Below are positions 5,204-56,360 of a DNA stretch of 64,000 nt, one piece after another. The translations under genes and the position numbers were made by a program. Within the stretch, counting starts at the first letter, position 1; each line of letters begins with the position of its first letter. Below the pieces are notes generated by a model. That model ran no database searches. It had not been told where the DNA came from and saw nothing but the letters and a program-made list of their open reading frames with translations. The stretch is taken from positions 10,769,505-10,833,504 of the forward strand of contig NC_064434.1 in assembly GCF_023343835.1 (NCBI RefSeq), in the 5' to 3' direction. This stretch comes from Lagopus muta. Lineage: Eukaryota; Chordata; Aves; Galliformes; Phasianidae.

Positions 5204-5790
5204 TAGAATTCATAGAAAATTGGCCTTTTGGCCAACCTAATTTGAGGAGACATGCCATGGGCAGGGTTGCTATCCTCTAGACCAGGCTGCCCAGAATCCC
5301 ATCTGACCTGGCCTTGAATGCCTCCAGTGACAGGACATCCACAACTTCTCTGGGCAGCCTGTGCCAGCACCTTACCACTCTCTAAGTAAAAAATTTCTTC
5401 CAAATACCTAACCTAAATCTCTCCTCTTTCAGTTTAAAGACATTTCCCTTTGTCCTATCACTGTCAGACCATGTAAAATGTTGGTTCCTCTCCTACTTGT
5501 TATCTCCCTTCACAGGTACTGGAAGGTTGCAATGAGATCTCCCCAGAGCCTACTCTTCTCCAAGCTAAACAAGCCCAACTCCCTCAACCTTTCTTCACAG
5601 GAGAGGTGTTCCAGCCCTTGTTCTTCATCACCCTTCTCTGCACTCACTCCAGCAACTCCTTCCTGTGCTGGAGGCCCCAGACCTGGATGCAGTACTCTAC
5701 ATGGGGCCTCACAAAAGGCAGAGAAGAAGGGAACAATCACATCCCTCTCCCTGCTGGCCACAAACACACCAACTGATAGCAACTGTACAC
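5204..5790 (-). mobile_element. CR1 LINE fragment, about 0.59 kb
   Basis: Minus-strand CR1 from a worn tail (TATAGAATTCATAGAA) through the 3' UTR into the ORF2 end. The minus strand encodes recognisable CR1 pieces, such as EQGLEHLSCEERLRELGLFS and a YFS-like upstream part, broken by substitutions. 5'-truncated and non-functional. Confidence 0.92.
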
Positions 5791-9710: not shown

Positions 9711-10426
9711 TTTTGAAAGATGCAGTTCTGTGTTAAAACAAAGTCAATTCTCATCACAAATGATTACTGCTCTCTACATCACTGCGATGGGCAGCTTCTT
9801 CTCAGCAGGAGACAGCAAATGCAACTTACAAAGTTAAAAAGTCACCACTGCACCAAATACTCAGGCTCTTGTACAAAGTGTATTCCTACCTCCTCGATCT
9901 TCTTGGGATGTTAGTCTGAATAACTTATGCCATCTATTGGCCTCAACCAGAGACAGATGCTCCGAGGAGAACTTTAATTCTGCAAAAGCAACTACGTTAC
10001 AAGGGATCTGAGGGTAGATGTGCAAGTTCTGCTAATGGAATCAATACCTTGCCACTACTCTGATCCTGAGGTTCACCTCTCCTGGCTGAATGTGCTTCAG
10101 AGTGCAGCTCCCAGAATAACCAGTTAGGTAAAAAAGAGTATTGGCACAAGGCTAGCTCACACTGCTTGGGAATCCAGAGACGGAGCAGCGAGGATTTGCA
10201 CTCTTACAGAAGCACTTAGGAAAAGTCCTTATTATGATAAGATCCACTTAGATCTAAAATCAGGGAAACTATCTCCAACTCGGTAACTCTGCCTCACATT
10301 GGCCATGCAAAGAGACTTCTCTCCCATTTCTGCACCCATAGCGGCTATTTAGTGATCCACGGCTCCTCAAAACGACTTCATTTTTCTATCTAAATGCATT
10401 TTTAAAAGGCAAGGCAGAGCTCTGCA

Positions 10427-11749: not shown

Positions 11750-12051
11750 TCTTTCTCCCTCCCTTTCTCCCTCCCTCCCTCCCTCCCTCCCTCCCTCCTT
11801 CCCTTCCCTCCCTCCTTCCCTTCCCTTCCCTTCCCTTCCCTTCCCTTCCCTTCCCTTCCCTTCCCTTCCCTTCCCTTCCCTTCCCTTCCCTTCCCTTCCC
11901 TTCCCTTCCCTTCCCTTCCCTTCCCTTCCCTTCCCTTCCCTTCCCTTCCCTTCCCTTCCCTTCCCTTCCCTTCCCTTCCCTTCCCTTCCCTTCCCTTCCC
12001 TTCCCTTCCCTTCCCTTCCCTTCCCTTCCCTTCCCTTCCCTTCCCTTCCTT
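11750..12051. repeat. Long pyrimidine microsatellite, mainly (TTCCC)n
   Basis: A homopyrimidine plus strand begins with CTTT/CCCT steps (about 11745-11811) and becomes an almost perfect TTCCC array from about 11812 to 12049, close to 48 units. All bases are C or T, so the strand pair is homopurine-homopyrimidine and mirror-like. The open frames seen through it, of GREGK or PSLPF type, are products of the repeat. Confidence 0.97.
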
Positions 12052-12201
12052 TCATGCTTTAAGCCAGATAATTCCATTTATCAAGGTTATTTAACAGCAT
12101 GTCCTCTTGCTGTTGAGTCAACCTAAATGCTCACCAAGCTCTCATGCTGTTGTGCTCCCAGTGATAATTCTGAAGCCTTACAAGTGTCCTCAGTTGTAAA
12201 T

Positions 12202-19609: not shown

Positions 19610-21890
19610 CTCTGACACTTTCACCTGTTGTTCATTACTGTAGAGTAAATCCTTTCAGCAAGATGACAACAGCACCTGTATTAAAACTTGCCAGTACTAA
19701 CTGCCAAACTACCAAGTGCCCACAGCCTATACTGCAGAGTCAGTTGGAGTATAAGAAGCACCAAAAAGATATGAGCAGTATCTTCTTATGCCACAAACTT
19801 CTCCCTTCTCTGTAAAATACTTTGTCTAGGGCCAGCTTTCCCTGCAGTCACTGAACTATGTAAATCCAGATTTATTGTATCTAAAATGGTGTATCTATAG
19901 TAACACTCAATCTTCCATGTTTACATGGCCCTTTCGCACACATATTCTGTAGTGTATGAGTAATTTATAAACTTTTCTTATATCTTGCTTAACAGTTCAG
20001 TGAAGGAGGGTTTGGAAGAGCTGGCATGGCTTTTCATTGGCATTGCTTTTTCCACAAACTGCTGTGGAGATGAAATGGAGGTTGTGTCCTTTCTGTTTTG
20101 CTTCATTCACCTTATCCACAAAGCATTCTCCATAGATTGACTGGTATTTCCTTATACAATTCATCATGCAAAATGGTGATATTCCAAGTTACCTCCTCCA
20201 TATCTTTCATGATCTTTACAATTACAATCTGTTTCCACAGAGAAAAAAAAAATATTTCTCAAAAAGACAAAGTTGCACCCCAGCTGTTATAGGAAGTGTT
20301 GTGAGACCTTTAACTTAGTGTTGGATGACTACCAGCTCTGGGGAGATTAGATGTGCAACCTGAATTGAATTTACATTCTTTCCCAAAAGGCAATATGGAG
20401 TTCTACGAGCAGAGCAATGTAGTCAAACATTGATGCAATTGAACATGCTCCCAAATTTATAAACATACCAATCTTAAATAAATTTCAGTTTGCTTTATAC
20501 TGAGCATCAAGAGAACCTCATTCCCCAGGTTCTGGGAGTCTAATCCAAAGGCCACTGAAATAAAATAGGATCAGGTTATTATCCATTCAAGACTGCAGCA
20601 CAAAACCTTAGATACTTCAATAAACAAGCATAAAATTGCATTTAAATAAATCACAATTAGACTTACAAATCAGATTTTATAAAGATACTCTAAAAAGATT
20701 TCTCTTGGTTCTGAAGTGCCTTAGTTGGACTGCTAATAAGACATCATGTGGGATTATTTAAACAGAACAAATCTGTTTATTTGCTGAAGTTAACACTATT
20801 TTCGCTTGATACTTCTGTTGCTACAGATTCTAATTCTGACTAGCCCATAGTCTTTCGTTAAAGAAAATTGATGTCATTCTTGTAACACTAAGACTTACTT
20901 TCTGATAAATAAAGGATATTGTAAGATCTAAAAAACTTTACTTAAAAATGAGGAAAGATTGGACTACAAAGGAGTAAAATAGTGACTATTAATCCACAGA
21001 ATATCTGAAGTGACCAACAGAAGAGAAATCTGTATGTCTGTCTGAAGAGAAGCCTGGCTTGTGACCATAGATCTGAGCATTTCAGGTTCTTCATCACCAT
21101 GAAAATGAGCTAAAAATACAAGAGGATTTTATTTGTGTGACCCATCTGCGTGACAGGAGCTATTATATCTGTCCATTACTTTGAGGAATATAAAAGTGCA
21201 AAAACATCTTCAAATGCGAACAAAGGGGGAGAATGGGAGGGAAGAATAAAATCTGTTGTCTGTATTTGAAATAGAACTAAGTCACAGATTGCATTTTCAA
21301 TTTAAGAAAAAGTAATTCTCTCCTTGTTTATTAGTGATGTCAAGTGACCATATATAACTGTGTATAGACAAAGAGAGGGTTGTACAGGGGCAGCAATTAT
21401 TAATGGACATCACGAAATGATAAATAAAGAGCTTGCTTGAAAGCAGTATTCACTGCACACAGATGTCTGGACTACGGACAGATGTCTTAAATTGTCTACT
21501 CAAAGCGCTTTTGTACTATCACAGTAATCTAAATTGCTTTGCATTTGGTTCCAGATACTTCCACAGACTGTTCTCCACTGCACATAAATTCCTATCCTCA
21601 AATTTTTACTGGACTTTAAGGACCAGATTACTTCCTGGTGTATCTCTTTGTCTTAATTCACTTCGTTTCTATTGAGCCAATTTGATGCAGCCAAACAGTT
21701 GAAATGATATTCCCAGTTATAGGAAATCTCATCCCTAACTACATGGGTTATGGCCCTGGTTCAGAGGAAGACGTGCACTGCCCTTGAGCCACCACAATGA
21801 AGGACATGACACTCAGAAAGCACAGCAGGAAGAAGATGAGGTGGAAGCATGGCTTTAAACAGGAAAAAGGTAGGTTTAGACTACTGCTAA
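19610..21890. other. Intergenic stretch, no gene seen
   Basis: AT-rich, no exon chain or recognised repeat. Confidence 0.45.
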
Positions 21891-21894
21891 GTAG

Positions 21895-22102
21895 TACCCT
21901 ACTGAGGGTAGGTTGAGACACTGCAACAGACTGACCAGTGAGGCTGTGGATGCCCCCTCCCTGGAAGCACTCAAGGCGAGGCTGGATGGGGCTGTGAACA
22001 ACCTGGTCTAGAGGGAGGTGTCCCTGCCTATAGCAGGGGGTTGGAACTGGAGGAGCTTAAATGTTCCTTCCAACCCAAACCATTCTATGATTCTATGATA
22101 AA
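21895..22102 (+). mobile_element. CR1 LINE fragment
   Basis: Plus-strand CR1 end: 'gaggctgtggatgccccctccctggaagcactcaaggcgaggctggatggggctgtgaacaacctggtctag', then 'gttggaactgg' and the tail ATTCTATGATTCTATGATA. Confidence 0.95.
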
Positions 22103-29600: not shown

Positions 29601-32600
29601 AGAACTCTTGAGGGAAGAACTCTCTTGACTCCTATTGTCCTCTCCAAAATAATTTTCTGGCTTTAAATAGAAGTGAAAACACTAAAACTAGATAATAGAT
29701 AAGCTGAAATCAAGAGACAAGGAAAAAGGGCCACCAATACTTAGAGCACCTTTTTCTATTCAGGTTTCTGTCTGGAGAGATGTTCCCCAAACTGAGAAGA
29801 ATATTGTTTTGAATGAACCTGAGGATTGGATTCTTTCTAATCAGGAGGTAAAAAGCAGGTTTTTTCTTGCTAGTAAAAGCTAGTGCTACTTCTAACACTA
29901 TCATCGTTCAATGTCCACACAGTATAAATTGTCCTTCTCAAAGGAACACTTCAGTAGAGCTCCTTTACCAACTGGTTTTTAGGAAAGAAGTATTCCATAT
30001 TAGAAATATAGAAAGCTGCAGGCCTAATCTCCAAGGAAGAAATGGAGGCAAGGTTCTCAGCTTAAAAGTCATTTTCTCTGACAAGAGGTTGTGCAACAAA
30101 ATCTCTAAGACCTTCGTGGCCCAGGAATGAGCTGCAGATAGGCTTTTTTCTTTCTTAGACCCTATGATTTTAGCACAGCAGTGCTGCCAATATTCTGCCA
30201 CATCATCTTCAAACCAGAAGGGATGCCTGTTTTTTTTTTTTTTTTTTTTTTGTTTTTTTTGTTTGTTTGTTACTCCTGATACAGAAAGCTTTCTTCATGT
30301 AAGAGGATGAGCAAGGCAAAGCTTAAGGGCTATCACATGGCCAGCACTTAGAATAAGGCAACAGAACTGCTGGGCAGCTGAATACAATAAATCATCCACT
30401 GTAGTAAATAACTCACTTTAAAGAGCTTGTTCAAACTGTTAATGAATTTCTCTGGGTAGGCAAAAGCAGGGGAAGCCTCAATATGGCAGATAGTATTTCA
30501 TCAACCAGAAGAAAAAAGAGCTCTGCTTGTAAGTGATGCTTGGAGGGCTGGCTATGGACTCAACACCACAGAAACCAGAATTCTGCTGCGAGTGCCATAT
30601 AGCACTGCACAAATTCAACTGGTCAAGGTTGGTACACTGCCTTCAACCTAGGAAGTTGTCAGACTGTACAGGTCTAATGAGATCTCGTTCTGCAGGCTCA
30701 GGGAATTACCTTTTCTGCAGTGAGATCAAGTACATTTTACAAACAGCAGTGGATGATCCTGATGGTGGATACTGCTGTGGCATGTCCTGTAGGTGAGAAA
30801 TGTGGTACCTTACCCCACTGCTTAAATATACGGAGTCTGGCTTGCAACTACAGTAATGAGCTGACAGCTTTCTTATCTTGTCCCTAAGATGGTGTGAATT
30901 ACATTAACAAAACAATCATCTGGACTGTTCCAAAATATTTTCAAGCACTCTGTGCTGGAGCAACTGGCTTTAAGGATGTGCTTGTTGAAGCTGGTGTGAA
31001 TCTACACAAACTCTCTGCTGAAGAAATGGCCTCCAGGAAATATGTGTTATCTAATGACTTAAATACAATTACAGTGAAGATACCTATAGGTGCAGAAGGT
31101 GGCTTTTACAAGGTTAGTCATGTTGGATGGCAGGCAAAGTAGATTTTCTGTTGAGTCGTTTTTGTGGGGTGTTTTTGTGGGTTTTTTTGGTTTTTTTTTT
31201 TTTTTTTTTTTTTTTTGTAGTTTGGTCTTTTTTTAGGGTTTTTATTTTTTGTGGTGATCGCAGGATGGTGATATATAGTATTCAAATGGTGATAGAATAG
31301 TGATGCATCCTGTATTCCTGGGCAGGAGTAATTGTTCATTCTGTTCCTTCCAAGTGATAAGGGAGGGGAAGAAGTAAGGAAAGGAGGGAAAAAAGGGGAA
31401 ATCAAAGGTATACAAATAGCTCTTGTGTGCACTGCATTGTGAAGACTCTTACTAACAAGCAAAGATGGACACAAATCTATAAAGGAATATTGATCTGTCT
31501 CCTACCTCATGTTAACATGTTCTCTGATGTTGCATTCCAAAGCTATAAAACATGTAGCTCTTATCATATTTTACCAAAAAAAAAAAAAAAAAAAAAGGCA
31601 CTGAAGAGAATGAGAGCACATGATTTGTTTACAAGATCACGTGGTATTGGGATGCCTTGAGAATGTAGCTCTAAATCTAGTAGCTCTTGAAGTGAACTGA
31701 GTCCTGGGCAAATGCTGTAACAACTGAGCTTTAGAGAAGTTGAAGGAGGAGCCATTTCCCTGATTAAACAGTCCCCTGCTTCTTTGGAAGCAACATGTGG
31801 GGGATGACTTCAGAAGGTAGTCTCTTGAGTATCCTGTGAATCCAGGCTTTAGAGAACTACTGCCCATAATAGTGATATAGGAAGCACCACATAAGAGGTC
31901 AGCTCCTCACAGATGTTGATTGTTTGTTGTTTTTATTGTTCCCAAACTTCCAAGCATAGAAGTGGCCTCACAGAGCAGAGGAGGACAACTATTTGGAGCT
32001 ATAATTCTAGCAGATTCTGTAATGCTATGGTATGACTTTGATTGTAACGTAGAGTCATATTCTACTGAAGGGTGTTCATAATGAAATTGCAGACTTCCGT
32101 AAGCAGTGGAAAGCATGGGGTAAAATACTCCATCAACCTGTTCTTGGAACACCAGTGGGAGGATAACAAATGGGGACTAACCAAGTATACCATCATCAAG
32201 GAAATAGAAACACCGTTTGAACAAGCAGAACTTGCTGTAACTAACAGTAAGTAGCTTAACATTGTTTACTGAAGGTTTTGGTACTGATGAGAAAATAATG
32301 TTGGCTTATGCATTTTCAGACTCCAATCTGAGTGCAAGGCTAATGAATGTTACAGTGGGAATGTTTCTCCTGGATGTGGAGCTCGTGAACTTGACCATTG
32401 AGGGGACAACTGTAACTGTACCTGAAGCTATTCAGCATGGATATTTAACATATGAAATTCAGTATGCTAATGGAAGCAAAATTTATGTAATACAAGTGTC
32501 ATTTGATGCACCAGGCATTAAGAAAGAGGTGTGTACGAAAAGTACGCACTGCAGTTTACCATCGTGTAGAAATTGTATCACTCACTGTTTCTTCTAAATG

Positions 32601-35600
32601 TGATTTTCCTAGTATGTAACTGATGACACAAGAGAATACACACTGAATGTCACCCTGAAGTTCATCATCCTTCCAACAAATGACACATTTGCTGTCCCTG
32701 TCATAACAGTGTCTGCTGTTAAAGATGCTGGTAAGCTAGTAGAATCTGAGCAAAACTTCTTTATCTGGCTGCAACTAACCTGATGAACTCAGCTGTTAAC
32801 TGTGCTACATTCATCCAGTGATGCTGTCAGTGCTAAATAGCACTTTTAAACTCTGATAGTAGCAAGCATGTTGGCTGACTCTTAACTGTATTACAGTACT
32901 ACCCAGTGCAAGGGGATACTGTGATGAGGATGACTTCCATCTCATTATCACCCGTGGGAATGTGGACCAAAACTGGCTGCCCTTCATCTCAGATCAGCAC
33001 CTGATGCCAGAGGTTGCTCAGAAAGACTACTATAGCCTGAATGACAATGGCACTCACTTGTTTGTCTCTGTCCCTTTTCTTTCCTCCCTTGTGGACTATA
33101 AGGTAAGGTTACTAGTCTGCATCAATTAAAATACACACTCTATCATCTATGAGATATTTATATGATACACTGTGTCCAACTATACAATATGGTAAAAATA
33201 AAGCATCCATTTGGGATAGGCTTCGAATAATTAATGGAGGGCATTTTCTACTCTGGAAGAATGCTTTACAGTTAAGAAAAGCACTTTACAGCCACTTAAA
33301 GGCTGAACAACATTTTAATGGAAATTGTACAGGCGATGATATTTAAGTTGCATTGTAAAACTACTGAAAAAGCTCTTTGTGTCTGTCTCTGGATTAAAAT
33401 AAAAACTCTTGTGGATGTGGTTTTGGTCAAGGATCATTACCTTTGGCTTGTGATAATCTGCTGTCTGAGTATTTCTAGAAAAGTAGTGGATCTTCATTCT
33501 CTTGTTTAATCTGTATCATCCCTAGGATATCCATATTTCTGGAGTAATGGCTTCACTTCACTTAAACTTGAAGGATGGCATCACCTTGGCTAATAAGAAG
33601 GACTTCTTGATCTCCTGCAGATTTCCACCTTCGGAGCTAATTCGTAAGAGCATTACCTCTAATGCACTGGGTTTAGCTCCTAAATGCTATACACTGAGTT
33701 GCATAAATAATCACAAACCTACACAGTTTTAAAGGCTTATAGTATTTATGCTTCTGTGACACCTTATCTGCTTGTCAAATCTTATTCCAAGTAATATGCT
33801 GCAAGACAAGTGAAATTACAGTGTGAAGAGACTATCCTGTTGGGTCTGGATTTTGTGAAGGAGTCAGTCTTCTCGCTCTCTCACTTCCAAAGCAAAACCA
33901 TTTGTCAGAAGGGTTTGGGCTTGTTTGGGGCCTTTGTTGTTGTTTGTTTTTTTTTGTTATAATTATGAAGATGGGCCTTGATGGGGGGAGGGGGGGGGGG
34001 GGGGGGAGGGTAGGTCAGCTTATAAACTCTTCATTGAGAAACATACTCATCTGGATTGACTGTGCTGAAATATATTGGTTAGAAAAATCTTTTGGTGAAA
34101 GGAGGCTTTCTAAGAATGTGTGAAATCACCACTATTCCATGTATTGCACACAGTAAAGATGCTAAAAAAAAAAAAATTAAAATTAAGGACAATTTAAAAA
34201 GTCTGGCTCAGATGTTTGCTCTCATGAGCTGCCAAAAGCCTTGCTAGCAGTCCATAAAGAACTTCACTGTAGCCTTCCAGCTCCTTCATTTTGTAACCTC
34301 GTTTGTACTGAAAAATGTATTTTTCTCTTTCAGAGTGCCTTCCCAATGGCACTGTGGTAATTACTGCAATAAAATTAGTAAGACTTGCAGATCTGGACAC
34401 CAGCCTGCTTGTCTTAAGAGACAAACAGTGTAAACCCGGTCTAGTGACAAAGAAGTCTGCAACCTTTAAATTCAATGTGAATACATGTGGAACAAGTAGA
34501 AAGGTAAGGGCTTAGTAATATTTACTTCCTGTTGGGATAGGTTCAGCACTAGAAATGGCAGAGATTCAGAAGCTGCAAGAAGGTTGCAGCTGACAAGTGG
34601 TCACTTCTGAAAAGCAGTATACCTACACTCCAGTTCTGAGAATGCAAAATTCAGTTAGGTAGAATTTTTTAGTTAAAACAACTTTTAGAGCCAGAAATGC
34701 TCTCTGAAACAGAACTTAGTTTGACAATGTTGACTGTAACAGACTTGAATGTGAGCTTATGTTGTCAATATGTACTCAGCTTCCTTGTAGAAGCTGATTA
34801 GTAGTCACTAATGAATGCCTAGACTGACTTAATTTACATAAGTAGAAAATAAAGAGAAAAGAACAAAAGATCTAATGTTAAAATTCCAGTTGCATCTAAT
34901 GCAACTTAATTCTGTGAATGCTAAGTACAAATTCTACTGACAGAATCAACTGTATGTATGTTTCAGTTCAACAGCACATCTATAACATACGAAAATGATG
35001 TACTCTATTTCAGACCTGGAAATGATATACCAGTATACCAGTAAGTACTGTTCCCTAGAAGGAGAATGTCAAAGGTGGTTTTCATTTCTAAAATCTAATC
35101 CAGAATGTTTTCCTTCAGATTAAAGTTTGTATGTGTTTACACAATCAAGCACTCAGCTGATGTCAAGTATGAAAATAAGAAGAACCTTCCATCAAATATT
35201 AAGCCAGGTTTTGGCTCTTTAGATCTCTCACTGAAGCTTTTTAAAGGTAACTTTTTCTGATTAGGCTTTTTATCAAGGATAGGGTTGGAAAAGCTGCTGA
35301 TTGTTTTCTTGTTCAACTCTGCCTCCAATGGGGAACGGGGTGACTCAGAGCCAGTTGCTCAAGACCATGTCCAGGCTTTTGAATAACTCCTAGGGCAAAG
35401 TGAAAGACTTTTTGAAGGCTTCATAGGTTTTGCCTTCAGGATGTAACAAATGGCCAGGAATCTACAGTGGATCATATCATGTGCAACCAAGATGTGGGTT
35501 TTCTGCTGGGGTAGTCATGTTATCTTGTGTAGTGGTTGGTATCTCTCTGTATCAGCCCTTAAAGTGTGACTAAGCAGAGGAATTAGTTTATGATTATTGT

Positions 35601-37617
35601 GACCAGTGTGTGCCAAAGAAAGAAGCTGCATTGATGCAGTTTCTAGGAGGAAGTTTTTCACACAGTGGGCGGTGACACGCTGGAGCAGGTTGCCCCACGA
35701 GGTTGTGGATGCCCCATCCCTGGAGGCATTCAAAGCCAGGCTGGATGTGGCTCTGGGCAGCCTGGGCTGCTGGTTGGCGACCCTGCACATAGCAGGGGGG
35801 TTGAAGTTAAATGACCACTGTGGGTCTTTTTCAACCCAGGGCATTCTGTGATTCTTTGATAATGCTGCTGCAACATGGTAACCTGGCAGAGGAGGCAACT
35901 GAAGCCTGAACAAAACTATCACCCTGTTTGGAATGGCTCGGCTCTGATTTTTCAGTGCTTTTCTAGAAGTTGTTTTGAACAAACATCTCATTGCAGTGGA
36001 TTTCATGGAAGGAATTGTCACTTCCTCCTCTGGATCCTCAGATCTCTTTCTTCACTTAGTTCTTATTTTCTGCCATCACAGCCCTATTTGCTGACACTTA
36101 AATACTCTCCCAGTTCTGGTACTGTATCAGAATGAATGATGATGAAAAAACTGAGTGACTCGAAATTGGTGAATATTTACCCTGTAAAAAGGAAACTCTA
36201 ACATTTCTTCTAGAGAAATCCTATTCTGAGCCCTATCAGGAGCTGGAATATCCTGTGGTAAAATATCTGAGGGAGGCACTGTACTTTGAAGTTGAACTGC
36301 TCCAGCCGGCAGACCCAAGACTGGAACTGAACTTGGAAGACTGTTGGGCTACCAATTCTCGAAGCCAAGACAGTCTTCCACAATGGCCAATCCTCATAAA
36401 CGGGTAAGAAGAGCATCCCTCTCATGGCTGATGACTGTTCAGCCCAAGGCCCCTATTCTTAACTAGAAGGAATGGGGAACAGGTTAGAAGTTGCCTAAGA
36501 AGGTTTGCTCTGTCCTAACTCTGTATCTGTTGAAGTACGTGAAGGTGCCTGCACAACAGCTATGGCTTTTGGTGTCAAGAGCACCTGGTGCTTCTAGCTA
36601 TCACTAATGAACATCTAAGAAGCAACTATTACCGTGGCCAAAGGCAGGAACCCTGAATGGGAGGGGCTCTGTCCATACTGCTATGCTCTGAGGAAAACAA
36701 GTTCTCTGTCATTTCACATCCATAGCTTGTGGAAGGAATTCACTGAAATGAAGGCTTGGATTATGTTTGCTTTCTTTTATTTTTGTTTTTTTCCAAAAGG
36801 TGTGAAAATAGTGAGGACTCTTACAAAACAGTCTCTCATGAAGTTAATATCAGCCATAGAGTAAAATTTCCTCAGCACTTCAAGAGATTTGAAGTGACAG
36901 TGTTCAGCTTTGTACAAGGCACAACTCTATTACAAATGCAGGTGAGGAATCTCTCTTTTGTCATGTTGGCAATCCCAATGTGTAGAGCAGATCATGCAAC
37001 AAATGCTGTAGAGGAGCTAGGAGCTCAGTTAGCCAGGTACTGATGGGGGCTGTTATCTGCCTTCAAGGCATAACCTTAGGAGTAGTACATAAAGACTAGC
37101 CTAGCCATACAATAGCATTCACTTGATTTCATTCAGAGTTCTGCGTATCCAATTTTTACTAGACTCCCCTGTACATGCTGCAATATTTTTTTTCGTGTAG
37201 TTATATTTCCACTGCAGTGTTGTGATCTGCAGCACTACACCGCTGCCTTCAGATGTGATTTGTCAGAGGAGATGCAATCCTGGGACACATCGCCTTGGTA
37301 AGAAAACTGATATTCCTCAAGTTGTTCCTGGAGATTGCTCAGCAGCTCACTGCATGCTGGTTGGAGTTCTGTCAATTGACAGACTCTTCCTGGTGTGTGC
37401 TATACAGAATATTAACACCTGAAATGTCTCACTAGACCGCAGTGCAGAACCACATCGACAGGGGCAAGTGTCATCTGGAGCAGTGCTTATTAGAGAGGAA
37501 AAATTGGTCAGAAAAGGTTGGTACTGCTCCCAGATCACATTACTGATACACCAAGTGTACTGCGGTTTTAACGTGAGGCATTTCTCTCTTCCTGTAGGTG
37601 AATGCACAGATTTCTGA
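26343..37617 (+). CDS. ZPAX: Zona pellucida egg-coat glycoprotein, ZPAX type (22 coding exons)
   Basis: Secreted structural glycoprotein of the oocyte coat (perivitelline layer). Coding exons: 26343-26365, 26591-26643, 27139-27231, 28529-28656, 29320-29463, 29764-29847, 30460-30627, 30696-30792, 30889-31112, 32093-32246, 32320-32528, 32613-32730, 32897-33102, 33526-33643, 34334-34503, 34967-35040, 35119-35246, 36214-36403, 36800-36941, 37201-37297, 37436-37516, 37598-37617. All junctions are GT-AG and phases match throughout: 2721 nt, 906 aa plus stop. Residues 1-25 form a signal peptide (MKLGLVLRILLIGM, cut near VAS). Residues about 26-606 hold ZP-N-like repeats; 608-866 form the ZP module. 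No transmembrane segment or GPI signal follows. The long ZP-N extension resembles ZP2, but chicken ZP2 maps elsewhere to my knowledge. Position beside MSGN1 and size favour ZPAX, a family kept in birds, frogs and fish and degenerate in mammals. Family is certain; the ZPAX name is likely. Confidence 0.88.
30230..30270. repeat. Poly(T) tract in ZPAX intron 6
   Basis: T-rich run with few interruptions, followed by GTTTGTTTGTT. Simple sequence. Confidence 0.9.
30628..30695 (+). other. ZPAX: Very short intron 7 of ZPAX (68 nt)
   Basis: Donor AAG|GTTGGT, acceptor TTCTGCAG. Reading through meets TAG after nine codons, so splicing is needed. Other short introns here are intron 10 (73 nt), 16 (78), 21 (81), 11 (84) and 8 (96), so the gene is compact although introns 3, 9 and 17 are near 1 kb or more. 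Confidence 0.82.
31191..31216. repeat. Poly(T) tract in ZPAX intron 9
   Basis: 26 uninterrupted T, preceded by T/G-rich sequence from about 31150. Confidence 0.92.
31576..31596. repeat. Poly(A) tract in ZPAX intron 9
   Basis: About 21 uninterrupted A. Together with the T tract 360 bp upstream it makes intron 9 able to fold back on itself. Confidence 0.92.
33983..34010 (+). repeat. Poly(G) tract in ZPAX intron 14
   Basis: GGGGGG A G16 A GGG on the coding strand. It meets the simple G-quadruplex rule and would be transcribed into the pre-mRNA. Length is likely to vary between individuals or assemblies. Confidence 0.93.
34334..37297 (+). other. ZPAX: ZP module of ZPAX (exons 15-20)
   Basis: ZP-N half: C608, C639, C658, C693 with the ITYEN...VLYF and LKFVCVY landmarks. 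ZP-C half: ALYFEVELL, then C774 (LEDCWATNS), C795 (PILINGC), and the late cluster C846, C851, C862, C866. These landmarks and ten cysteines are those of the ZP2-like class of ZP modules, which polymerise coat proteins into filaments. The piece between the halves (about 696-750) would be the linker. Confidence 0.9.
35625..35862 (+). mobile_element. CR1 LINE fragment in ZPAX intron 17
   Basis: Plus-strand CR1: 'gttgtggatgccccatccctggaggcattcaaagccaggctggatgtggctctgggcagcctg' through 'ggtctttttcaaccc' to the tail ATTCTGTGATTCTTTGAT. A frame reads LPHEVVDAPSLEAFKARLDVALGSL, the decayed end of CR1 ORF2. Same orientation as the host gene. Confidence 0.96.
37436..37617 (+). other. ZPAX: ZPAX C-terminal exons with an optional 81-nt intron
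   Basis: Exon 21 (37436-37516) may join exon 22 (37598-37617), ending the protein in LVRKGECTDF. The 81 nt between them are a multiple of three and contain no in-frame stop, so reading straight through gives the same stop with 27 extra residues (WYCSQITLLIHQ and on), 933 aa. The donor is GTTGGT, weaker than most in the gene; the acceptor CTCTCTTCCTGTAG is good. Either way, no 20-residue hydrophobic anchor follows. The AVLI stretch at 889-892 may be the external hydrophobic patch. Confidence 0.72.
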
Positions 37618-37778
37618 GGAAATATCCAAGGACTGCTTAGTTCCACAAAATTGCAGTTAAATGGCCCCTAACCAGGGCCTTTAGGCCTGTAGTCTGCTTG
37701 GACTTGCAAGGAAGGGCATCTTAAAAATATCTGCCAGGAAAACACATTCTCAGTGCCTATGAGGAAAAGGGTCAGCTA

Positions 37779-37784
37779 AATAAA
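37779..37784 (+). terminator. ZPAX: ZPAX poly(A) signal
   Basis: AATAAA 162 nt after the stop codon, followed within 40 nt by G/T-rich sequence (CAGTGTGTTCC, TTGTGTTTC). Cleavage is expected near 37800, giving a 3' UTR of about 180 nt. Confidence 0.75.
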
Positions 37785-37804
37785 CATTGATGTAATCTCT
37801 TAGT

Positions 37805-40800
37805 AAACTTCAGTGTGTTCCTCTCTTGTGTTTCTCTAGAGCTTTGAAGTTGTGTTTTTTGTGTGTGACTTGCATCTTACCTAGTCTTACCAGCAAACAT
37901 TTCTGCAACTCTTCTAGTCATACTGCAGTTGTAAACATCTGTTCCAGAGCAGAGGGGTGACGGTAGCAGCAGGCATCAAGTCAGTCATTTAGGGTGGGTG
38001 GTTGCTCTTTTTAAAGACTTAAGATGAATTAAGCAGGGAGCTTAATATCAGTAAGCCTTTCTGAAGCAAGGTGGGCATGACCATATTTGATCCTGTAAAG
38101 GAACTGACAGAAAATCTGTGAGCTGTGGAGGGCTGTGGCTCTGCAATGTCAAGTTGTTGCTTTCCTTGGAGTGGGGAAGAATCGGTCACAGATTGCACCA
38201 GTAACTCTGCTATGCAGAGTAAACAGCTGCACTAGAGGAAAATAAGCTTTTAGTGGAGACTTGATGTAATATCATGACAACTATTACTAAACTCTATCTA
38301 CAAAGTGTTGAGGGTTCTTCCTAATATTAGGAGTTCCTGTTAGATTACCTTGTCTTTTTTTTTTTTTTTTTTTTTTTTTAGTAGAAGCAAAAATGTCCTT
38401 TCTTTTTTTTTTTTTTTTTTTTTTTCCCTCTGCATCTGAACAGAGCCATGAAAGCTGCTCAGATTCAGTACTGTATTTTCCTGTTGTAAGGAAAGCTGTT
38501 GCTTGGCATGAATCATTATTGCTTAGGGCTAAATCTACAACAATGGGTATAAAATGCAGTTTTCTTTTTAACTTTATTAAATAGAATTCTACTACAGGGG
38601 ATTTCTGTGAAAGCCACCTTGAGCAAGATACTATTTCATGAATCTGTTTGTACCTTGTGAAGAAAAACAATGAATAATTGATTTGTAGCTCTGTTGTAAT
38701 ACCTGTGCAGTGGCCTTGTTAAACCAGTTTGTGCTGTAACTTAGAGCTCATGTTTGCAAATCTTGTCAATCTTACAATTTCCTGTGAAGTTGATATGTAG
38801 CTAATAGATTTTTTTGCTAGAAAGGACAATAAAAGATGTGTAGACTTCCTGATGAACAACATATGAAGTGCCTCAAGACTGTTTTCCTATGGAGACAGCT
38901 AAAATGCTGAAGGAGTCTTACTTTACCACTGCTTACTTACAGCTTACTGCTGTGCTCAATGAACGACACTGAAATGTGCATCTTGTTCTTCAATAAGGGA
39001 ATAAAAGGAAAGGCAAAGCACAAGCTTGACAGACCATTTACTCTGTGTTTAGTGATTATTTCTCCTATGTTAACCCAGTGGTTAAGTGTCATCTATCCCT
39101 GAGTCTGTGGGTACAATCCAGTGAATTCACAAGGCACATCCATGATATACTTGCTAGGGTTTTGTGTCTAATAGGTTCCAGTTTTGTTTCTATACAGAAA
39201 TATATGACCACTATATAGGTACAGTGATGTCCCTGTATATCTCTATATCATGCTGAGTTTCTCCCAAGAAATAAGAGTAGTATGCAGTTTTTTTTTTCCA
39301 GATGGAGCTGCAATTTTCATCCGCTATGATGGTGTTTTAACAGTGCACTGTAGGCTGCCATGGGCATCCTGAACCACATTCATCTCTGGGAGTGCAGGAG
39401 CTGGGAGGAAACGTGTAATAACTAGGAACTAATGTGAGTATTAAGCAGAAGGTAGGGCAGTCTATTTTAACGTTGCTAACTTTGTCTCTGCTGTGGCTTC
39501 CTGGGTTTTATGATCTTTTTCTTCAAACCAAGACACAAATTGAAAATCACTTAATAGAAAACACAGTATTTACAATCTTTCATCTATGGATTGTTCGTTC
39601 CCCAGGATAGTCAATATCTTGTTCTTTTCTACTATTAGGGACTTAAGAGATGTTGAGAAGCTAGATGATGCCCAGTCTAAATTTTGTTTCTACTCTTTAG
39701 TCTTAAACTCTGTTTAGCACTGTCCTGCACAATGAGAGTTCTAATAGATTTGTGGTCTTTACTGAAAATTCATGAGATTCCTATTTCAACCTTGGAAAGG
39801 TTTTGAATGAACTTTGTCAGATTTTTCAACACTGTGTGAGACACAATCTATTTCAGTGTCAGCAAAATATTAAATTTGAAGAAGACATGACAATACTCTC
39901 TGTGCCTCAGAGGTGCCTGTTTATACTAAAACTGTATAACTCCCTTCCTGGTTTTATATATCTAAAAAAAATATATATCCTCTTCAAGTGTTGATTCAAC
40001 ACCTCTTTGCCTTTCAAGTGGATTTTTTATGACCACATGCTTTCCCCCCGGTATTTGGAATGTTATTTTTATATCCTTGTTAACACAAGTTGAAAGGAGA
40101 TCAATCTTATTTGTTTATGCTTTATGTCTCCTGCAATTTCAACAGGTGAATGATAAAAGTCTAGGGGAAGAGAGAAGTCTGGTGTAATTTGTTTTTATAA
40201 GAAAATAAAACAATACTGGAAGCCCACTGCAGACAGATATTTCCACTTGAAATAAATGACAGTAAGTCATTGCTATAGCTAGCTCTATCTGGCTCTTGAT
40301 AGAAACAGTTTTTTCACTTTTACTGTACTTTATTATCAATTGCATGACTACTCTTCTTGAAACTGCTGCTTTTGTTTCTTAAAGCAACAACACCTTACTC
40401 TTAACCAAATTTTGAAAGGTAAGAAAACTGATGTTTGTTCACAGCTCAATTAATTTTAGTACACTTATTTTGTTCTTTGTTATTAATCATTAATGGCTTA
40501 AGTGGAAGCTTAAAGACCATGCTTCTGTCTGGAGGAAAATGCTCTGACAATGAGTTAATGATTTGGGAAACTCTGGTTTCTACCACAAACCTATTGATAG
40601 TCTGCAGCTAGTAATCTCCATAGAAACTCTCCTTCTATTTGAGCATGCCAGTTCAAAAACATCTGAGAGCCACACTAACAAGGCAGGTACTTATTTCACA
40701 TTAAATGCTTTAAAGCATAATTAAATTGAACTAGTTTCCTTACAGTACTTAGCATAGTGATAAGAGTAAGTCTAGGTTCGTGCTGTGTAAAGACCAAAGA

Positions 40801-42550
40801 GATCTTCCAGATAGATGGAGGAAAATGGGTCTTGCTCACTGCTGAACTTTCTCCATGCAGTCATGTTTTTCTATCTGTTAAATGAGGAGAAAACAAATAA
40901 CATTTGTGGCTGTATAACCATTAAGTTAGGGGCAAATGGAAGTCAGATACCTTATCCTCAGAAATTGAGGTGCACGTTTCTTTATATATAAATATGTACA
41001 GATGCGTTTGAATGAATCTTTTGTATAAAAATTTCTGCTATGCTGGCAGTTCCCCTTAGGAACAGACTGAAGTGCCTTAACAAGAGGTTTTCTTCCCATC
41101 AAACGCACCTATGTGTAGCCCAAATGTGTAACTATAAAAGTTCTTGGCACCTATGTGGTGCTCCTCAGTTTAGAATTTCAAAGTGCTGTGTGGGGGCAGG
41201 CAGCCACAAGCTCCCCTGTTTTGCTGCTCACAGAGCCAGAGCTTTCCTGGAGATCTTCTTCCAAGCAAGGTTTCAGTCACTGAGGAATACTCTCTCTCTC
41301 TCTGAGGGAACCTGGTCTTCTTACCAAGAGGGAACTTGCCTTCCCTGTCATCTTCAGCATGTACCCGTAATTCTGAGCACAAATTGCAGCTCAGGAAAGC
41401 AGAGGGTAACGTCTGGCCTTCCTCATGTCTCTTGCCTTTCTCTGAAGGTCTGAGAGCATTTACTTAAAAGATAAACCACTTGTGTGCAGCATCTGACAGC
41501 AAGGTGGTGTGGTGGTTTCATTTGTAAACTAACATTTCAGGGACAAGTATTCCAAACATCTGTCGAGTTTCTTTATCTCAAGGCTTCTTCCAAAATTGTA
41601 ACATCTACAGAAATAAATTAAACAAAAATGAATTAACTGAAACATTTTAGAATATTCTCCATTTGTCATCTTTGGTATTAGCCCTTGCCCTGATGGTGAA
41701 TGAATCAAGTTCTGACTCAGTCTACTAGTTTCTTGCATTAGAAAATCATTAATGCAATAGAACAATGTCTTTGTGGTGGAGGCTTTTGGTGCTGTTTTTC
41801 TCTTTTTAACTCTTCTTTCTAGCCTTCTTCAGTACCTGTGTTAATGAAGGAATTTCAATGATGCTGCCCCGGAAAAGGCAAAAACGTGACTTGGGAGGGA
41901 TTTTAGGACTGGAAGAGTTCAGTTCATTGGTTGGATCCTCTTTTATTCTCCTGTATCTCTTTTTCTTCAGCATGATGGACAACTCTGTCCCTTAGGCAAA
42001 ATGTAATATAATTCCTCAGCCACAGACTTCCAGTGATAGCTGTGCTACTCCTACTGTAGTTTTACTTCCACCTGAACTCTTAATGTATGTTAAAATGTTT
42101 GTATGTGAAAGATTTTCTTTAGTTCTGTGTCTTTTACAATTTCTTCAGATTGTAGAACTTTTTTTTTTTTTTTTTTTTTTTTGCCTCTGTGCTATAGGCT
42201 ATCAGTTTTGCTATTGGACTTCAATACTGCCTCATGAATTTTACATACAGTCCTGAAAGTTGTTAAATCTTGTATTCTCACGTAGGGGACTTAATTCTTG
42301 CTCTCTTTCACACCAAATAAATATCCTACATCCTTGGGGGTAAAGAAATGGAAAACAATCTCAACTGTGTTTCACTTTACTTAAAAATTAATAGAAATAA
42401 GTATTTATTAACAGCAGTACTCGTATCATCATGAATACAACAATCTCTTCTCTTACAGTGAAATTTGTACACCAAGGAAAGAACTACAAAAGGAGAGAAA
42501 TGTTCAATGTCCTTGAAAGCAAAGTTGGCAGATCCTAGAAAGTCCTGGCC
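37805..42550. other. Intergenic stretch between ZPAX and MSGN1, left part
   Basis: No exon chain, RNA gene or CR1 copy recognised. It holds two long T tracts (38355-38379 and 38403-38425), another at 42161-42182, and a (CT)n run near 41290. Confidence 0.5.
38355..38425. repeat. Paired poly(T) tracts
   Basis: Two T runs of about 25 and 23 separated by about 23 bp of mixed sequence. Confidence 0.9.
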
Positions 42551-42552
42551 GC

Positions 42553-43625
42553 AGAATCATGGAATGGCTTAGATTGGAAGTGACCTTAAAGATCATCTAG
42601 TTCCAAACCCCTTGCCTAGAGCTCCATCCAACCTAGCTTTGCACGCTATCATGCGTGCGTGATCATGCGTGCGTGATCATGCGTGCGTGATCATGCGTGC
42701 GTGATCATGCGTGCGTGATCATGCGTGCGTGATCATGCGTGCGTGATCATGCGTGCGTGATCATGCGTGCGTGATCATGCGTGCGTGATCATGCGTGCGT
42801 GATCATGCGTGCGTGATCATGCGTGCGTGATCATGCGTGCGTGATCATGCGTGCGTGATCATGCGTGCGTGATCATGCGTGCGTGATCATGCGTGCGTGA
42901 TCATGCGTGCGTGATCATGCGTGCGTGATCATGCGTGCGTGATCATGCGTGCGTGATCATGCGTGCGTGATCATGCGTGCGTGATCATGCGTGCGTGATC
43001 ATGCGTGCGTGATCATGCGTGCGTGATCATGCGTGCGTGATCATGCGTGCGTGATCATGCGTGCGTGATCATGCGTGCGTGATCATGCGTGCGTGATCAT
43101 GCGTGCGTGATCATGCGTGCGTGATCATGCGTGCGTGATCATGCGTGCGTGATCATGCGTGCGTGATCATGCGTGCGTGATCATGCGTGCGTGATCATGC
43201 GTGCGTGATCATGCGTGCGTGATGAGTCGTCTACACTTTATCTGGACAACATGTTCCAGTCCCTCACCAGCCTCAGAGTGCAGAATTTCTACCAAATATT
43301 TAATCTAATTCTATCTTTGTTTAGTTTAAAGCAGTTATTCCTGTCTGGGTAAGGACTTCCTCCTCAATTTTCCTGTAGGACCACTTTTTAGGTATTGGAA
43401 GGCCATAATGAGGTTTCCCTGAAACCTTCCCTTCTCCATGCTAAACAAGCCCGATGCCCTCAGCCTTTCTTTGTAAGAGAGGTGCTCCAGTCCTCTGCTC
43501 ATCCTCCTGGCCCTTCCCCACGCCTGCTCCAACAGCTCCACATCTTTCCTGTACTGGGTGCCTCAGAGCTGAATGTGGCACTGCAGCTGGGATCTCACAA
43601 AACCACAATAGAAGGGAAGTATAAT
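42553..43625 (-). mobile_element. CR1 LINE fragment interrupted by a minisatellite
   Basis: The 3' end is at 42553 (CAGAATCATGGAATGGCTTAG), followed by 'gatcatctagttccaaacccc' and 'agctccatccaacctagc'. At 42651 the copy is broken by a 573-bp tandem array and resumes at about 43229 with 'ctggacaacatgttccagtccctcacc'. It runs on to about 43625, where the minus strand encodes the ORF2-like GLEHLSYKERLRASGLFSME. Without the array it would be a roughly 500-bp ordinary 5'-truncated copy. Confidence 0.92.
42651..43223. repeat. 14-bp minisatellite, about 41 copies
   Basis: Unit ATGCGTGCGTGATC repeated head to tail, to the eye without variant units, over 573 bp. Each unit carries two CpG sites, so about 80 CpGs sit in an otherwise CpG-poor region. 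Twelve of every 14 bases (CATGCGTGCGTG) alternate pyrimidine and purine, the pattern that favours Z-DNA. Each unit junction makes the palindrome TGATCA. Confidence 0.98.
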
Positions 43626-43895: not shown

Positions 43896-44055
43896 ATAGA
43901 ATCATAAAATTGCTCAGGTTGGAAAAGACCTTAAAGGTCATGAAGTCCTACTGCAACCTAATCATACTACCTGAACTCTAACAACCCTCCACTAAATCAT
44001 GTCCCTGAGCATCACATTCAAATGGTTTTTAATCACATTCAGGGATGGTTGCTCA
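43896..44055 (-). mobile_element. CR1 LINE fragment
   Basis: ATCATAGAATCATAAAATTGCTCAGGTTGGAAAAGACC-type start, then 'aaaggtcatgaagtcctactgcaacc' and 'aaatcatgtccctgagcatcac'. Confidence 0.9.
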
Positions 44056-47022: not shown

Positions 47023-47532
47023 CTACACCCGCTTGACGCTGTTGAGGAGCTCCGTCAGTTCGCTGATGTACTTGATGGTGTACTTGAGGGTCTGTATTTT
47101 GGTGAGGGGCTGTCCCCGCTGGCTGTAGGCGGGCGGCAGGTAGTTGCGCAGTGTGTGCAGCGCATCGGCCAGGGTCCTCATCCGCAGCTTCTCCCTCTCG
47201 CTGGCTTTCCTCCGGCGCTGAGCTGACATCCGCACCTTGGTGCCCTTGGGCAGCCGGGCCTGACCGGGGCTGGGCAGGTAGGCTGGGGGGAAGTCCACCA
47301 GGCCGTAGCCCACCAGGCCGCCACCGCTGTATGGGGTCTCGGCTGCTGCCGGGCACGGGGACGAGGAGTAAGACTCAAAGGACGGCGTTGGAGACAAGCT
47401 GTGTGGAGAGGAGACAGAGTGCAGCTCGAAAGCCCCAGTAGAGTTCTTCCAGTCCCAGGAGGATAAGCAGACAGAGTGCTCCGAACCCAAAGTGTCTTCC
47501 ATATTTATCAACGTCTCGTGCAATTTGTCCAT
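47023..47532 (-). CDS. MSGN1: Mesogenin 1, bHLH transcription factor of presomitic mesoderm
   Basis: Nuclear class II bHLH protein of 169 aa that drives paraxial and presomitic mesoderm fate downstream of Wnt and T-box signals. It binds E-boxes as a dimer with E proteins. The N-terminal half is Ser/Pro/Tyr-rich ([17 protein letters not shown]). The bHLH lies at about 104-158: basic part [15 protein letters not shown] (107-120), helix 1 [14 protein letters not shown], loop SQRGQPLTK, helix 2 [18 protein letters not shown]. This wording identifies mesogenin rather than MESP or TWIST. It ends NSVKRV and is slightly shorter than the mammalian proteins (about 190 aa). One intact exon, as in other vertebrates. 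The start at 47532 has a strong context (A at -3, G at +4) and lies 72 nt from a TATA-like box. The frame stays open 69 codons further upstream, but that part lies mostly beyond the expected transcription start. Confidence 0.96.
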
Positions 47533-47603
47533 TCTGGAGGAGCGCGCGGGAGAAGCAATTCCCGCTGCCCGCCAGCAAAGGCTGGAGCTGCCTGCTGCTG
47601 AGA

Positions 47604-47669
47604 CCTTTTTATGATGGAGGGAGGAAAGTGACAAAGTGGGAACGTGGGTTTGGCCAGGGGAGTTCAAAG
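47604..47669 (-). promoter_or_regulatory. MSGN1: MSGN1 core promoter with TATA-like box and candidate TCF/LEF sites
   Basis: Minus-strand CATAAAAAGG at 47604-47613 predicts transcription start near 47575 and a 5' UTR of about 45 nt. Plus-strand TTCAAAG (47663-47669) and GACAAAG (47630-47636) resemble TCF/LEF cores (WWCAAAG). The mouse gene is a known Wnt/TCF and TBX6 target, so these sites suit its control. Motif matches are seen; function is inferred. Confidence 0.55.
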
Positions 47670-47759
47670 GAGCACCACAAGTGCTAAGATGGAAAATGAA
47701 CTCCTGATGTGCTAGTTTCTTCTCAGTGATAATTATCAACCTTCAGCTAAAAAGCCTTT

Positions 47760-55957: not shown

Positions 55958-56360
55958 TCCATGTGTCCCTATGAGGACAGGCTGAGAAAGCTGGGGCTGT
56001 TCAGCCTGGAGAAGGCTGTGAGATGACCTGATAGTGGCCTTTCAGTATCTTAAGGGGAGCTACAGGAAAGAGGGGTACAGACTCTTTAGCAGGGCCTGTG
56101 GTGATAGAACAAGTGGAAATGGCCTCAAGCTTAAAGAGGGAGATTAAGATTAGTTATAAAGAAAATGTCTTTTACAGTGAGGGTGGTGAGGTACTGGAAC
56201 AGGTTGCCCAGAGAAGTGGTTGATGGAGACTTTCAAGGCTCAAACCCTGGGCAACCTGACCTAACTGTTGTGTCCCTGTTCATTGCAGGGGAGTTGAGTT
56301 AGATGACCTTTAAAAGTCCTTTCCAATTCTAAGAATTCTCTGATTCTCTGATTCTATGCG
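55958..56360 (+). mobile_element. CR1 LINE fragment, about 0.4 kb
   Basis: Plus-strand copy starting in the ORF2 end ('gaggacaggctgagaaagctggggctgttcagcctggagaagg') and running through 'gcccagagaagtggttgatgg' to the tail ATTCTCTGATTCTCTGATTCTATG. Frames are broken. Confidence 0.95.

Follow-up and report, generated by a model that had tools for sequence, protein, structure and literature searches.

The window (the whole 64-kb stretch of DNA that was analysed) contains a perfect tandem array enclosed on both sides by parts of a repeat that we take to be CR1. The array lies between a partial gene of the ZP-domain type and a bHLH open reading frame. The features of the locus are as follows.

34336..36410, plus strand: partial ZP-domain gene (egg coat type), with ZP-N at about 34336–34665 and the first part of ZP-C at 36201–36410
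42552..42647, minus strand: 3'-end part of the presumed CR1 copy, on the left side of the array, with a KARLDGA-like reading-frame end (BLAST, alignment and translation)
42648..43223, no strand assigned: perfect tandem array with a period of 14 bp, 41 copies and 2 further bp, unit ATGCGTGCGTGATC in any register (TRF and exact script)
43224..43618, minus strand: part of the presumed CR1 copy right of the array, lying further 5' in CR1 (BLAST within the window)
47023..47742, minus strand: bHLH open reading frame, taken from stop to stop (Pfam PF00010, E = 2.1e-12)

The ZP-domain gene was located by a Pfam search of the three plus-strand frames of 32001–41902, with stops read as X. The ZP-N part matches PF23344 (E = 2.7e-5; 24.8 bits against a cut-off of 24.7) and the ZP-C part matches PF00100 (E = 9.7e-20) over positions 10–77 of the 133 in the profile. 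As the latter match ends at position 77, more exons must follow; the search, which extended to 41.9 kb in these frames, showed none beyond the ZP-C part. We assume that this gene is perhaps ZPAX, and that the bHLH frame is MSGN1-like. To the left of the array the distance to the ZP-C match is about 6.2 kb, and to its right the bHLH frame ends 3.8 kb away. The ZP gene runs to the right and the bHLH frame to the left, both towards the array, which therefore lies on the downstream side of the located parts of both. The initial annotation had placed the array between an oocyte gene and a mesoderm gene; the two flanking genes are consistent with these types, with the qualifications that the array is on the downstream side of their located parts and that the identity of the MSGN1-like frame is presumptive. 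The presumed CR1 and these two genes also point to a bird genome. No promoter was seen near the array within the window. A study of how ZP genes evolved (PMC6262864) contains none of the names MSGN1, GEN1, KCNS3 and SMC6.

TRF describes the array by a period of 14, 41.1 copies, 100% matches and 0% indels (score 1152), and an exact script put the full extent of the period-14 repetition at 576 bp (41 × 14 + 2), without a mismatch. The array is thus a minisatellite, composed of head-to-tail units within the range of about 10–60 bp, and the initial count of about 41 identical units is borne out. There are 40 consecutive full units at 42651–43210 in the register first used. The unit and the count hold for the interval originally given, 42651..43223, while its start is 3 bases late, the true start being 42648. 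Among the 20 tandem repeats that TRF listed for the window, mononucleotide runs aside, no other combines more than three copies with 100% matches, and an origin by chance is out of the question. The exact 14-mer in the same register and its reverse complement have no further occurrence in the 64-kb window. A two-unit pattern gave no match in IMG/VR or in GTDB genomes, which is expected for bird DNA and carries little weight. The unit, searched for as a word in several registers and on both strands, was not found in the papers searched, and topic searches, judged by titles and the first lines of abstracts and, for some of them, on part of the results, gave no publication on this array. Coding by the array was considered and ruled out, because the 14-bp period passes through all three frames of one strand within 42 bp and because TGA, as read from the sequence, is present once per unit on both strands.

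Consensus building can produce perfect arrays, and the length or the homogeneity of this one could in principle be an artefact of an assembly that was collapsed, expanded or polished to a consensus. We regard this as very improbable, however, given that 576 bp is far below the usual length of long reads and that the edges of the array are clean. In addition, a TCCCT array at 11756–12053 of the same window retains imperfections (94% matches). All three arguments come from the assembly itself and not from reads.

Both flanks of the array were compared with the window by BLAST. The left flank matches seven other places, with 78–84% identity over 44–62 bp, and the right flank matches three pieces in two places, with 71–87% identity: 71–73% to pieces of the copy at 5338–5733 and 87% over 38 bp to 56178–56215. 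The flanks on both sides thus match other copies of one repeat, in agreement with the proposal that the array splits a CR1 fragment in two. The whole host copy spans about 42552–43618 on the minus strand. In the copy at 21890–22094, the corresponding stretch translates as EAVDAPSLEALKARLDGAVNNLV followed by a stop, a reading-frame end which is presumably that of CR1 ORF2. The left flank of the array translates as CKARLDGALGKG, in the same sense as this frame, and the array therefore interrupts the last codons of that CR1-like reading frame.

Ten copies of the repeat were extracted, and four of them, picked by eye, were aligned with the host copy cut to a single unit, the remaining six being left unaligned. 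Three of the four span the joint, and with all three the host copy is colinear across it. The only interruptions in this region are a 7-bp gap at the joint, opposite TGCGTGC, in each of the three spanning copies, and a further 1-bp gap near it in one. As colinearity is obtained with one unit left, the array corresponds to the addition of about 40.5 units to a pre-existing copy. This colinearity suggests that the array was probably born inside its host copy after the insertion of the latter. The origin inside a CR1 copy, as initially put forward, is supported by the BLAST of the flanks, the one-unit alignment and the translation, the assignment to CR1 itself being presumptive. A stretch of about 34 bp present in other aligned copies is missing from the host copy, at some 36 bp to the left of the array. 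A second CR1-like 3' end lies at 43898–43941, about 280 bp past the host copy and in the same orientation.

Minisatellites born inside transposable elements are known, among others for Alu, B1 and MaLR (PMC6947457). The present array likewise interrupts a single element copy, with colinearity kept on either side; it shares with these cases the short-unit tandem array within one copy and the element-continuous flanks, and differs by its CR1-like host and by its CpG-rich, perfectly uniform unit. In the parts of that paper on element-born repeats, CR1 is listed for chicken satellite DNAs, and not for minisatellites. The satellites concerned, HinfI and Cen, have in common with our case a tandem DNA associated with CR1; they are listed as satellite DNAs, whereas here there is one array of 576 bp, built of 14-bp units of which one half was not found in the other CR1 copies. 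In a survey of the chicken galGal4 assembly (PMC4992247), 12 310 minisatellite arrays are tabulated with a stated minimum of 50 units, so that the present array is one of many, its 41 units being below that limit. Its interest is that it would be a clean case of a minisatellite soon after birth: the parent transposon is readable on both sides, and the starting state can therefore be deduced.

The units of the array are 100% identical, whereas the flanks of the host are 13–29% different from other copies in the window. On this basis, the array looks younger than the CR1 insertion, and the two appear to differ in age. Perfect homogeneity had been read as a sign of recent expansion or of active homogenisation, and the complete identity of the units supports that statement; recency is judged here from homogeneity, which gene conversion or an assembly consensus could mimic. 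With no change in 576 bp, the 95% bound on the time since the last homogenisation of the array is 0.7–1.0 My if CpGs mutate ten times faster, and 2.6–3.5 My without this acceleration, both calculated with assumed rates of 1.5–2e-9 per site and year.

The best reading of these data is an ordinary young minisatellite born in a transposable element and uniform because it is recent. We estimate at about 0.8 the probability that a young minisatellite arose inside an old CR1 copy, and we infer both the order of events and the slippage. Where the CR1 reading frame ends, a few bases would have mutated and about 7 bp would have been gained, yielding a 14-bp seed; this seed would probably consist of CR1 sequence with point changes and the 7-bp gain, perhaps including a doubling of GCGT. 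The seed would then have been duplicated and brought to about 41 units by slippage or unequal exchange, a multiplication too fast for point mutations to build up. No function of the array beyond repeat growth is indicated. In the model of Haber and Louis, as told in PMC6947457, slippage takes place between flanking direct repeats of 5–10 bp. No direct repeats of this size flanking the seed were found at the edges of the array, which overlap by just 2 bp (by our own arithmetic, this is expected by chance in about 16% of cases, or one in six), and the model is therefore without support here; slippage on matches shorter than 5–10 bp is possible.

Slippage may have been favoured on one of the strands. 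When single-stranded in replication or repair, the plus strand could fold into a continuous hairpin of Watson–Crick and G–T pairs. If G–T pairs are allowed, all seven unit positions of this strand self-pair, against five of the seven on the minus strand; this self-complementarity of the whole plus strand, and not of the minus strand, is newly seen here. The predicted energies of ten units are −48.7 (plus) versus −27.3 kcal/mol (minus) when folded as DNA, and −104.8 versus −54.3 kcal/mol when folded as RNA. Compared with dinucleotide shuffles, ten plus-strand units have z scores of −4.5 (DNA) and −8.2 (RNA), none of 200 shuffles being as good, and the minus strand has z scores of +1.3 as DNA, where 177 of 200 shuffles are as good, and −2.6 as RNA, where 2 of 200 are. 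Four plus-strand units folded as DNA reach a z score of only −1.28 (26 of 200 as good). Dinucleotide shuffles break the tandem order, and shuffling of the unit itself is a fairer and much weaker control. Full pairing is reached by 7.3% of 200 000 composition-shuffled units (0.7% of random 14-mers of even composition), and 13 out of 300 arrays built from shuffled units reach at least the same stability when folded as RNA. Because so many shuffled units do likewise, the plus-strand self-complementarity may have a chance origin; the significance of the hairpin under this control is suggestive at most, and the much weaker result of the fairer shuffling is the reason why no selection for the hairpin is claimed. 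Hairpin-forming CTG/CAG expansions are similar in that folding is more stable in one of the two strands; they differ from the present case, with its 14-bp unit, its pairing dependent on G–T and an instability that is hypothetical.

The alternating purine–pyrimidine runs and the TGATCA at the joints of the units, both pointed out in the initial annotation, are present: each unit holds a 12-bp alternating run, CATGCGTGCGTG, so that 12 of its 14 bp alternate, and the array has 40 TGATCA joints. Since the window holds eight further alternating runs of at least 12 bp, the longest measuring 16 bp, a single run is not unusual; their regular repetition is. A B–Z energy scan was carried out by a simplified method with an assumed energy table. 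The lowest score of a 24-bp segment in the array is 18.64, below all of the 63 353 segments compared outside it (best 21.7), a set that omits the 47 segments immediately to its left and those with a start within its final 24 bases. When the unit is shuffled, only 6 of 5000 arrays have an energy as low, and the score of the array is higher than those of repeats of pure CA (16.8) and of CG (7.9). The combination of alternating sequence with the lowest computed energy of the window is in line with the predicted Z-DNA proneness.

Short motifs resembling protein-binding sites are also frequent in the array. It contains 82 GCGTG, all on one strand, and 41 CATGCG matches, words which resemble the core recognition motifs of AhR/ARNT-, HIF- or Myc-type factors. 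Selection of the array as a regulatory element, for example through clustered GCGTG sites that would control one of the neighbouring genes, nevertheless appears extremely unlikely: any word within the repeated unit recurs about 41 times, and the array is downstream of the known parts of both genes.

The CpG richness reported initially, with two CpGs per unit, is confirmed, whereas the methylation hot spot, fragile site or hypervariable locus proposed with it are putative. There are 82 CpGs in the array (14.2 per 100 bp) out of 608 in the window, in less than 1% of its length, and the observed/expected ratio is 1.87 versus 0.20 in the rest of the window. CpG islands are recognized in sequence by a length of at least 200 bp, a G + C content above 50% and an observed/expected ratio above 0.6, and the array, with 576 bp, 57% and 1.87, has the sequence properties of such an island. 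These numbers would also suit an older array at a CpG-rich site prone to recombination, where gene conversion or unequal exchange would maintain its uniformity, all the more as crossovers in a flycatcher pedigree are associated with CpG islands and Prdm9 is absent in birds (PMC4878770). Recency by itself suffices, however, to explain the identity of the units, and we consider an older array unlikely. A more speculative possibility, to which we attach very little weight, is that repeat growth in a dead CR1, within a CpG-poor stretch, built an orphan CpG island. If unmethylated in the germ line, this island might attract meiotic breaks which, together with the one-strand G–T hairpin, would keep the array uniform and variable in length, as a self-made recombination hot spot in a bird without PRDM9. 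Its support is limited to the base composition, the computed folding and the link between flycatcher crossovers and CpG islands (PMC4878770). Were the young minisatellite that we favour found to be unmethylated and polymorphic, it would offer a test of the idea that in birds a CpG island and a crossover site can result from nothing but the growth of a repeat.

Elsewhere in the window, the segment 47001–48000 is CpG-rich (G + C 54%, observed/expected 0.56) and coincides with the bHLH reading frame. The TCCCT pentanucleotide array, with 61 copies by TRF, lies just right of a further CpG-rich stretch, in which the 1-kb segments starting at 10001 and 11001 have G + C contents of 61% and 53% and observed/expected ratios of 0.91 and 0.68, respectively, giving it the look of a promoter island.
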